Below are positions 12,113 to 14,817 of a stretch of DNA of 64,000 bases, one piece after another. The notes below the pieces were generated by a model. It searched no databases. It was given only the letters and a program-made list of their open reading frames with translations, and was not told the origin of the DNA. The stretch covers positions 1,721,001 through 1,785,000 of the forward strand of contig NZ_CP032152.1 in the NCBI RefSeq assembly GCF_003555505.1, given 5' to 3'. How positions within the stretch are numbered: the first letter of the stretch is position 1; every line of letters starts with the position of its first letter. The translations under genes were made by a program, and so were the position numbers. Source of the DNA: Thermosynechococcus sichuanensis E542 (lineage in GTDB: Bacteria > Cyanobacteriota > Cyanobacteriia > Thermosynechococcales > Thermosynechococcaceae).

Positions 12113-13078
12113 ATGAACATTGCCCCTGATATTACTGCCCTCATTGGTCGCACCCCCCTCGTGCGCTTGAATCGCATTCCCCAATCCGAAGGCTGTGTGG
12201 CGCAAATTGTGGTCAAGCTAGAGAGCATGAATCCTGCGGCCTCGGTTAAGGATCGCATTGGCCTGAGTATGATTCAGGAGGCAGAAGCAGCGGGTCTCAT
12301 TACCCCCGGTAAAACGGTTTTAGTGGAACCTACATCGGGAAATACTGGGATTGCCTTGGCCATGGTAGCAGCGGCAAAGGGCTATCGCCTGATTCTCACC
12401 ATGCCAGAAACGATGAGTGCAGAGCGGCGAGCCATGCTGCGTGCCTATGGAGCAGAGCTGGATTTGACCCCCGGCACTGAGGGGATGAGTGGTGCGATTC
12501 GTCGTGCGGAAGAGATTACCGCCTCCCTTGAGGATGCCTTCATGCTGCAACAGTTCAAAAATCCCGCCAATCCCAAGATTCATCGTGAAACCACTGCCCT
12601 CGAAATTTGGCAAGATACAGACGGTCAAGTGGATATTTTGGTGGCTGGAGTGGGTACTGGAGGTACGATTACGGGGGTGGCAGAAGTGATCAAAGCCAAG
12701 AAGCCTAGCTTTCAGGCGATCGCCGTCGAACCGAGCAATAGTCCTGTCCTTTCAGGCGGCAAACCGGGTCCCCACAAAATTCAAGGCATTGGCGCTGGCT
12801 TTGTGCCCCCCGTTCTTAAACGTGAACTCATTGATGAAGTGATTACCGTCTCTGACGATCAAGCCATTCATTTTGGTCGGCGTTTGGCGCGTGAAGAAGG
12901 CTTGCTTTCAGGCATTTCCAGTGGCGCTGCCCTTTGTGCTGCCATTCAGGTGGCTCAACGACCCGAAAATGCAGGCAAGCTAATTGTCATGGTGCAGCCG
13001 AGCTTTGGTGAACGCTACTTGACCACACCCCTGTTTCAAGATGCACTACCCTTGGTACCCAGTTATTTACAACATTAG
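12113..13078 (+). CDS. cysK: Cysteine synthase A (O-acetylserine sulfhydrylase)
   Basis: The 321-residue PLP enzyme makes cysteine from O-acetylserine and sulfide in the cytoplasm. It shows the N-terminal [16 protein letters not shown], the PLP lysine in [11 protein letters not shown] (about residue 45), the substrate loop [13 protein letters not shown], and the phosphate-binding [24 protein letters not shown] near the C-terminus holds the Ser that contacts PLP. The start is ATG 12113, preceded by a GGAG stretch. It follows the Rrf2 regulator, and the two are likely co-transcribed or functionally linked. A hairpin-forming sequence follows at 13113-13135. Confidence 0.97.
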
Positions 13079-13210: not shown

Positions 13211-13675
13211 ATGACTGAACCTGCCACCCGCTCTGAACTTAGTCAAGTCCTAGATGCTATCCAAGGAATGCAAGCCGATATGAGGGCGATGCAGGCCACC
13301 ATTCAGGCGATGGACAAAAAGTTAGACATCCACATTGCCACCACAACAGAGCGCTTCAACCTCATGGATGAAAAGCTAAAGCGGCTGGAGGACAAAATTG
13401 ATGCTGTAGAAGCAAAGTTAGAGCAGCGGATCAATGCTGTAGAAGCCAAATTGGAGCAGCGCATCAATGCTGTGGAGGCTAAGCTAGAGCAGCGGATCAA
13501 TTCCATAGAGATACAGTTAGGGCAGCGGATTGATACAGTAGAGTCCACGTTGCAGGACATTGCTAAGCGACAGGCGGGGACAGATGCACGGCTATGGGGC
13601 TTCTTGGTAACCCTCTTGGTGGCAACGCTGGGACTGCTGGCAAAATTATTACTCTTTGATTTACCCCAGTCTTAA
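13211..13675 (+). CDS. Hendecad-repeat coiled-coil protein with C-terminal membrane anchor, copy 1
   Basis: From ATG 13211 the protein has 154 residues (an in-frame start at 13175 would add 12). The middle is a long coiled coil built of 11-residue repeats: DAVEAKLEQRI, NAVEAKLEQRI twice, NSIEIQLGQRI and DTVESTLQDIA, encoded by consecutive 33-base units at 13400-13564. The C-terminus is one hydrophobic span (WGFLVTLLVATLGLLAKLLLF) with a very short tail, so it is a tail-anchored-like protein with a cytoplasmic coiled coil. I do not recognise a named function. A close paralogue follows 134 bases later. Confidence 0.75.
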   Translation: MTEPATRSELSQVLDAIQGMQADMRAMQATIQAMDKKLDIHIATTTERFNLMDEKLKRLEDKIDAVEAKLEQRINAVEAKLEQRINAVEAKLEQRINSIEIQLGQRIDTVESTLQDIAKRQAGTDARLWGFLVTLLVATLGLLAKLLLFDLPQS

Positions 13676-13809
13676 GGATGTCTCTCTCTAAGGCTTTCGT
13701 CGAAGATGGTGTAAAACTGCTGTAAGCCAAGGAGAACCTTCATAAGCTTTATACTATGCACCCCCTAATGCAAGATAGAGTGTAGAAAAAGGCTTCAAAG
13801 GCTCTAAAA

Positions 13810-14220
13810 GTGAACGAACCCGCCACTCGCTCTGAACTTAGTCAAGTCTTGGATGCCATCCAAGGCATGCAAGTCACTATCCAAGCGATCGACAAAAAGT
13901 TAGACATCCACATTGCCACCACAACAGAGCGCTTCAACCTCATGGATGAAAAGCTGAAGCGGCTGGAGGACAAAATTGATGCTGTAGAAGCCAAATTGGA
14001 GCAGCGCATCAATGCTGTGGAGGCTAAGCTAGAACAGCGAATCAATTCCATAGAGATACAGTTAGGGCAGCGGATTGATACAGTAGAGTCCACGTTGCAG
14101 GACATTGCTAAGCGACAGGCGGGCACGGATGCGCGGCTATGGGGCTTCTTGGTAACCCTCTTGGTGGCAACGCTGGGACTGCTGGCAAAATTATTACTCT
14201 TTGATTTACCCTCGTCTTAA
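13810..14220 (+). CDS. Hendecad-repeat coiled-coil protein with C-terminal membrane anchor, copy 2
   Basis: A GTG at 13810 starts a 136-residue paralogue of the preceding gene. It matches copy 1 nearly base for base from the LDIHIATTTERFNLMDEKLK region to the end, but lacks one 33-base hendecad unit and seven residues near QGMQ. The repeat units run at 13978-14109, and the same C-terminal membrane span closes the protein. The near-identity implies recent duplication or gene conversion. The initiation codon, not the frame, is the uncertain part, since no ATG is available upstream of the conserved EPATRSELSQVLDAIQGMQ. Confidence 0.72.
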   Translation: MNEPATRSELSQVLDAIQGMQVTIQAIDKKLDIHIATTTERFNLMDEKLKRLEDKIDAVEAKLEQRINAVEAKLEQRINSIEIQLGQRIDTVESTLQDIAKRQAGTDARLWGFLVTLLVATLGLLAKLLLFDLPSS

Positions 14221-14271: not shown

Positions 14272-14817
14272 ATGCAACGCTTAACAAAACCCAGTTTTTT
14301 AGTGAAGCTACGAGCAGGCGCATTGTCTCTAGTCCTCCTACCATTGGTTGTACCAGCAGTGGCTAAGGCTGAAAATCCTACCCATGTGCGACAACTCTTG
14401 GAAACGCGCCAATGTCCCAACTGTGATCTGCGGGGCGCGAACCTAATGGATGCCAATTTGTTTAAGGCAAATTTGGCGGGTGCCAATTTGGAGGGCGCCT
14501 ATCTGGCGGGTGCGAATCTCTTTGGCGCCAATTTGGAAAGGGCAAACTTGAACCGTGCCAGCCTCTACCTAGCGATTTTGGTCAATGCCAATTTGGCAGG
14601 GGCGCAACTTGTGGGAACCCGCCTCACCCTCAGCAACCTTGTCAATGCCAACCTTAGCGGTGCCAATCTGGAGAATGCAGTCATGAAGGGGGCAAATATG
14701 ATTGATGTGAATTTGACGGCTGCAAACCTGAAGGGGGCAGATCTCGATCGCGCCAATTTGAGTGGGGCTAATTTCAGCCAAACGATCTTTGATCGCCCCC
14801 CAGCCCTTAGGAAGTAA
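14272..14817 (+). CDS. Exported pentapeptide-repeat protein
   Basis: The 181-residue protein starts with a signal peptide ([20 protein letters not shown] followed by a hydrophobic core and AKA-EN as a likely cleavage site near residue 33). After a QCPNCDLRG segment it consists of A(N/D)LXX pentapeptide repeats to near the C-terminus (for example [20 protein letters not shown]), which fold into a right-handed quadrilateral beta helix. Proteins of this kind are abundant in cyanobacteria, many in the thylakoid lumen or periplasm, and mostly of unknown role. The gene end overlaps the convergent gltX end by 11 bases. Confidence 0.9.

Follow-up and report, generated by a model that had tools for sequence, protein, structure and literature searches.

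Tandem Genes for Tail-Anchored Coiled-Coil Proteins

We analyzed a 64,000-nt stretch of the Thermosynechococcus sichuanensis E542 genome (contig NZ_CP032152.1; hereafter, the window), in which two related genes lie in tandem on the plus strand. An earlier description made from the letters only (the sequence-only reading) had placed both genes correctly: copy 1 extends from an ATG at 13211 to a stop at 13675 and encodes 154 amino acids, and copy 2, a paralogue, extends from a GTG at 13810 to a stop at 14220 and encodes 136. Copy 1 was recognized as an open reading frame (ORF) and by family HMM and genome searches, and copy 2 as an ORF and by alignment. By ORF positions, the upstream gene, which we take from its sequence to be cysteine-synthase-like, ends at 13078, and a pentapeptide-repeat gene follows at 14272. 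The 134-nt intergenic stretch separating the copies (13676–13809, unstranded) was found by DNA search in one of the 11 genus genomes, the window genome itself. A promoter scan of the pair found none.

The stalk of copy 1 has a hydrophobic period of 3.64 residues, that of a hendecad coiled coil (two relatives gave 3.66 and 3.64), and Tandem Repeats Finder detected a 33-nt tandem repeat array of 3.9 units within the gene (13401–13530). Hydropathy placed a C-terminal membrane span at residues 131–149 (13601–13657; KD19 2.43), and the AlphaFold2 monomer model is a single helix over residues 4–149 (pLDDT 87, pTM 0.39). In copy 2, the corresponding array has 2.1 units (13979–14046) and the C-terminal span covers residues 113–131 (14146–14202, by hydropathy). 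The repeats, the period and the hydropathy bear out the earlier description of both proteins as a hendecad stalk followed by a single C-terminal span. Each rod protein would probably be one long helix, in which a conserved N-terminal stretch leads into a hendecad stalk, variable in length, and then into the membrane span, and the C-terminal span should put the rod on the cytoplasmic side. Inside each gene we also observed a 12-pair stem (13352–13383 and 13930–13961) that is terminator-like on the minus strand only; the number of such stems, two, is near the shuffle mean.

Mosaic Identity of the Two Copies

The sequence-only reading had described the copies as nearly identical over their 3′ part and as differing by a single 33-nt unit. 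The first part held, with 301 of 309 nt (97%) identical outside the first 40 aligned codons. The second did not: the alignment shows one hendecad (33 nt) and one heptad (21 nt) missing from copy 2. Codon and DNA alignments put the 21-nt segment near the N-terminus of copy 1, at approximately 13268–13288 on the plus strand, where its seven codons encode MQADMRA; the segment is shared with G024, the genome with the closest match. Identity between the copies is mosaic, at 84/99 nt (85%) over the first 40 aligned codons compared with 97% over the rest (Fisher p = 2e-5), and two direct repeats, one of 242 nt (97%) and one of 222 nt (85%), join the two genes.

At the same site, G024 has a single intact gene with the unit pattern of copy 1 and a 99% identical protein. 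It agrees with copy 1 at its 5′ end and over about 90 nt upstream, and with copy 2 at its 3′ end and in the DNA downstream; farther upstream, its flank is different and rearranged. Copy 1 agrees with this gene at 111/120 nt in the first 40 codons and 323/342 nt in the rest, copy 2 at 85/99 and 298/309 nt, respectively. At their 5′ ends, the two copies therefore differ from each other (15/99 nt) about twice as much as copy 1 differs from G024 (9/120 nt). From these counts, the 5′ ends appear older than the split from G024 and the 3′ parts appear homogenised. The mosaic identity, and a G024 gene sharing the 5′ side of copy 1 and the 3′ side of copy 2, do not bear out the recent simple tandem duplication proposed from the sequence. 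These small counts would be better explained by an older pair whose 3′ three quarters have been homogenised in this genome, probably by gene conversion, and which has fused into a single gene in G024.

Between copy 1 and the G024 gene, we counted 26 synonymous and 2 non-synonymous differences (dS 0.29, dN 0.006, dN/dS ~0.02), and copy 1 is strongly conserved, under purifying selection. Chance or an assembly error is an unlikely source of the pair, because the genome is a single contig, the copies diverge at their 5′ ends, and an intact gene for a 99% identical protein is present in G024 with the same downstream flank. Elsewhere in the genus, the site holds a decayed remnant in G020, the first and last few codons only in G022, the last few only in G025, and nothing in G028. 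The pentapeptide gene is present without a family match beside it in G021, G026 and G019, and in G023 and G027 it was not found at the threshold used. The G022 site (L068), between cysK and the pentapeptide gene, has the form of a deletion scar, with about 4 nt common to the junction.

Family Distribution and Stepwise Length Variation

The window genome carries eight family genes at five loci. Across the 11 Thermosynechococcus genomes, we counted 45 loci, each with one or more open frames; an array was scored as one locus, and decayed copies were included. Contig ends truncate some genes in the draft assemblies G022 and G023, where one gene may therefore count as two loci. Arrays reach 7 and 5 genes in G026 and 3 genes in G000, G021 and G024. 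Matches were detected in 18 of 29 genomes of the taxonomic family at E 1e-4 and in 24 of 242 genomes of the class at E 1e-10, ten of the latter lying outside the taxonomic family. A genome-contig search returned seven loci, six titled Thermosynechococcus and one Acaryochloris. The members in G015 are weak matches (E 2e-9 to 2e-21), and coiled coils can look related through convergence, a caveat on family membership. The resulting catalogue has 95 rows from 15 genomes, including one row from G153, outside the taxonomic family. In Thermosynechococcus and its close relatives, these tail-anchored coiled-coil rods form a large, fast-changing family with multiple gene copies.

As the sequence-only reading had suspected, coiled-coil length varies within the lineage: intact orthologues behind tRNA-Arg(ccg) have 147, 158, 169, 191 and 191 residues, and those at tRNA-Tyr have 151, 151 and 162. 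Among 202 gaps between related proteins (123 pairs, which are not independent), the sizes were 7 residues in 52 cases, 11 in 29, 18 in 16, 22 in 12 and 29 in 11, and a further 40 gaps measured 1–4 residues. The counts cover subfamilies A–C only, since the strict filter for intact genes retained 43 of the 95 rows and removed one five-gene G026 array entirely. As expected from coiled-coil geometry, the number of helical turns stays whole when 7 or 11 residues are added or lost. The stalk changes length mainly by whole 7- or 11-residue repeats with its register kept, most likely via recombination between repeats.

Association with tRNA Genes and Traces of Integration

Many family genes lie next to tRNA genes. 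We found 27 gene–tRNA pairs that overlap or lie within 300 nt of each other, and in 23 of them the tRNA is upstream on the same strand, a count that includes the second frame of one frameshifted G028 gene and several decayed copies. The other four involve a tRNA-Gly on the opposite strand at decayed copies. Nine different tRNA genes are linked: Arg(ccg), Tyr, Ala, Pro(ggg) and Ser(cga) in the genus, and Ser(tga), Leu(caa) and Arg(acg) in G018 and Lys in G015 outside it. Such linkage was found at 18 of the 45 genus loci, and at 7 of 22 loci in G000, G018 and G026 together. Random placement predicts 0.2% per locus; the probability of 7/22 is ~2e-9 at five times that rate, 2e-7 at 2% and 7e-5 at 5%. 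Loci within one genus share history, and tRNA types, not genomes, were taken as independent. Adjacency of a tRNA and an ORF is in itself not rare in G000, because 28 of its 38 tRNAs have a same-strand ORF of at least 80 amino acids starting within 300 nt, a number of these ORFs likely being spurious.

The gap between tRNA and gene is 14–28 nt at some loci, with 18 nt separating tRNA-Arg from the ATG. Gaps of 14–28 nt are too short for a separate promoter, so at these loci the rod gene is likely co-transcribed with the upstream tRNA. No tRNA was found within about 1.5 kb on either side of ten loci outside the taxonomic family (the 10 best), and none of the ten G016 loci is linked within 300 nt. 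At the window locus itself, there is no tRNA, duplicated tRNA end or integrase nearby; the nearest tRNA in the window is at ~49.3 kb, and tRNA-end fragments in the window are at chance level only.

Several loci carry marks of integration. At the tRNA-Ala site, about 30 nt separate the tRNA from the flank in G000, compared with ~0.7 kb containing the gene in G027 and ~0.5 kb containing a decayed gene in G025. The 3′ end of tRNA-Tyr is repeated downstream of the gene in G022 (51 nt, 92%) and G021 (18 nt), and that of tRNA-Pro in G026 (31–32 nt, 84%); in all three genomes, the true neighbouring tRNA came out first among the 37 that were compared. In G000 and G024, the tRNA-Tyr repeat is weaker (ranks 4 and 3, respectively), and no duplicated tRNA end was found at the genus loci at tRNA-Arg, tRNA-Ala and tRNA-Ser(cga). 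Among relatives, partial tRNAs lie near family genes for tRNA-Val (twice in G015, once in G016) and for tRNA-Pro and tRNA-Thr (G018); one of the G015 tRNA-Val fragments sits upstream of the family gene, and pieces of integrase genes occur near two of these loci. In control DNA (107 kb, all from G000), the best tRNA fragments scored 26.6 bits, against 34–82 bits for the six strongest loci other than that of the complete element described below. The 18-nt repeat of G021 also scored 26.6 bits, no higher than the best control; what counts for it are its position and rank. Integrases gave 30 matches in 14 genomes, two of them within 10 kb of a family gene. At tRNA-Val(gac) of G015 (L205:4486–6958), we also observed a second kind of small coiled-coil gene in two copies (92% identical), one 28 nt after the tRNA and the other after the partial tRNA copy.

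A Family Gene at the End of an Integrated Element

In G018, a complete 7.3-kb element flanked by perfect 44-nt repeats occupies tRNA-Thr and carries a family gene as its last intact gene. The order is tRNA-Thr, an integrase gene, several small genes, an AAA_25 ATPase gene, a terminase small subunit gene, a ParB-like gene and the family gene, which overlaps the end of the ParB-like gene by 4 nt. An ORF that by eye resembles the end of a second family gene follows, and then the 44-nt copy of the tRNA end. The integrase, of the tyrosine type, matches PF00589 (4.9e-11) and phrog_1 (5.7e-42), and the terminase small subunit matches phrog_4102 (2.9e-23). Among the seven other ORFs scanned beside the family gene, a scan that left out one relic ORF, we found no structural PHROG, and four had no PHROG match.

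Features by which PICI-like phage satellites are recognized are present here, namely a tyrosine integrase with att repeats in a tRNA gene, and a terminase small subunit accompanied by no capsid or tail genes. The element is like PICIs and other phage satellites in its integrase, tRNA attachment, replication-type ATPase and terminase small subunit; it differs in that no known regulator pair was recognized. On gene content, it looks like a small phage satellite. Marine cyanobacteria harbour tycheposons, elements that make use of tRNA genes. PMC11389934 names tycheposons among satellite families. A second complete element in G018 (L239:5566–14690) sits at tRNA-Pro(cgg) between perfect 50-nt repeats. 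It encodes an integrase, and its terminase gene, related to that of the first element, is interrupted by one in-frame stop; no family match was detected in it. Homologues of the terminase were found in two of the 242 genomes, one being G018 itself.

Two other loci in relatives have possible defence genes. In G016 (L216:10781–11905), a SoFic-type gene (PADLOC, 4.7e-116) lies between tRNA-Met and a family gene with a small DNA-binding-like gene in front of it; this locus showed no copy of a tRNA end. In G018 (L206:9736–13922), three consecutive genes between tRNA-Pro(ggg) and its partial copy adjoin a family gene. The first of them has a weak dynamin match below the cut-off, PADLOC gives no clear match, and the set may be a defence cluster.

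Comparison with Known Protein Families

None of the best 25 Pfam and NCBIfam matches listed for each window protein reaches its curated cut-off. The Pfam, NCBIfam, PHROGs and PADLOC matches (best 25 listed in each case; 13 for PADLOC with copy 2) are weak and mostly to coiled coils, and we rejected them as identities. Weak matches in a PDB sequence search, such as hemagglutinin stalks (best E 0.0046), were rejected as compositional. Phage records gave no match, and 25 pattern matches in viral contigs yielded none that was confirmed. The titles and abstract starts of open-licence PMC literature contained no report of the family or of its tRNA link, which is weak evidence of absence.

Bdr proteins have an 11-residue repeat length and a C-terminal span. 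PMC4370689 describes them (PFam80, with KID repeats) as repeat-containing inner-membrane paralogues, in which they are like the window proteins, and as unique to Borrelia. Five bdr records matched in tblastn at 1e-6 to 1e-8, but over query residues 7–118, 7–118, 39–116, 48–115 and 49–115, short of the span at 131–149, and no Bdr model is among the best 25 NCBIfam matches listed. On two plasmids that we viewed, the bdr gene is flanked by terminase and portal genes or comes after holin genes. The window proteins have repeats and a span as Bdr does, phage-related carriage was seen for a relative's gene only, and any likeness would be one of workings only.

The CCDC90-like proteins (DUF1640; MCUR1 and prokaryotic relatives), likewise a coiled coil with a membrane span according to PMC7519068, were rejected. 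The protein of one relative (L202) scored 17.3 bits against PF07798 (cut-off, 33.5), and this model is not among the best 25 of 89 Pfam matches for copy 1 or the best 25 of 60 for copy 2. XhlA-type phage hemolysin proteins are small coils with a C-terminal span; the corresponding match (phrog_937, 0.0042) is weak and was obtained for a relative only, and no lysis gene was recognized in the G018 element. Matches on Thermus plasmids (11 of 18 plasmid records) end before the span and were set aside. The one viewed, on plasmid pHB8b (L223), is to a hypothetical protein that has a similar coil and is encoded within a cobalamin gene cluster.

Origin and Possible Function of the Family

We regard it as fairly probable that the family was carried by satellite-like elements integrating into tRNA genes and was retained when those elements decayed, with the window pair as an older converted pair and length changing in steps that keep the register. 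The rod genes would have spread as end-of-element cargo of elements integrating into tRNA genes; in the window genome, the elements would be gone and the genes remain, kept by purifying selection as measured for copy 1, some of them presumably transcribed with the tRNA in front. The Thermosynechococcus copies, including the window pair, would then descend from element cargo. For the window locus, this mobile origin rests on family membership, because no tRNA, tRNA-end copy or integrase lies nearby.

As for function, the leading candidate is an element-borne membrane protein that would shield either the cell or the element itself from competing phages. We take this tentatively as a first guess because of the possible defence neighbours and the end-of-element position. 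A host envelope spacer comes second and is itself a doubtful candidate. More speculatively, and with rather little confidence, such rods could be a recurrent phage- or satellite-borne class, found independently in tRNA-integrated satellites of cyanobacteria and as Bdr in Borrelia prophages, tuned in length by steps of 7 or 11 residues, and kept by Thermosynechococcus hosts as an immunity-type repertoire that is partly transcribed from tRNA promoters. An unannotated repeat gene leads to a traceable trail concerning which parts of mobile elements a host keeps, and why beside tRNA genes. At one and the same locus, sibling species have proteins with a similar head and anchor whose stalks differ by exact repeat units; these proteins form a natural ruler series suited to tests of coiled-coil length effects at the membrane, and the family offers a comparison for the Borrelia Bdr proteins.

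We weighed element cargo against three other explanations. The rods could belong to the host, as tail-anchored spacers in the cell or thylakoid membrane; their genes would have multiplied by ordinary duplication, both tandem and dispersed, with new copies surviving behind tRNA genes because these are strong promoters. The strong purifying selection between copy 1 and G024, the tandem arrays sharing intergenic DNA, the 18-nt gap between tRNA-Arg and the ATG with no space for a promoter of the gene's own, and the small share of integrases near family genes all agree with this; however, duplicated tRNA 3′ ends beside some genes, the insertion at tRNA-Ala and carriage in an att-flanked element argue against it, and we consider it unlikely. 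Plain recent duplication with slippage, bearing no wider meaning, would account for the 97% identity over the 3′ three quarters and for the 33-nt repeats common to both copies. It is at odds with the mosaic identity, the intergenic DNA seen nowhere else in the genus, the comparison with G024 and the six further family genes elsewhere in the window genome, and appears quite improbable.

Equally improbable, in our judgement, is a two-gene module in which a small DNA-binding protein and the rod tether element DNA to the membrane or act as toxin and antitoxin. In G015, G016 and G018, a small RHH-like or ParB-like gene ends at most 8 nt from the family start in 6 of 25 genes (two short rows were skipped); the small gene, presumably ribbon-helix-helix-like, has no Pfam or PHROG match. 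Against the module, a catalogued rod gene comes after 3 of the 12 homologues of the small gene, and a rule that a small DNA-binding-like gene always precedes the rod gene is not borne out. Nor did any Thermosynechococcus copy examined have such a partner upstream; the flank of one G019 copy, and of no other, by eye resembles the end of the small gene.
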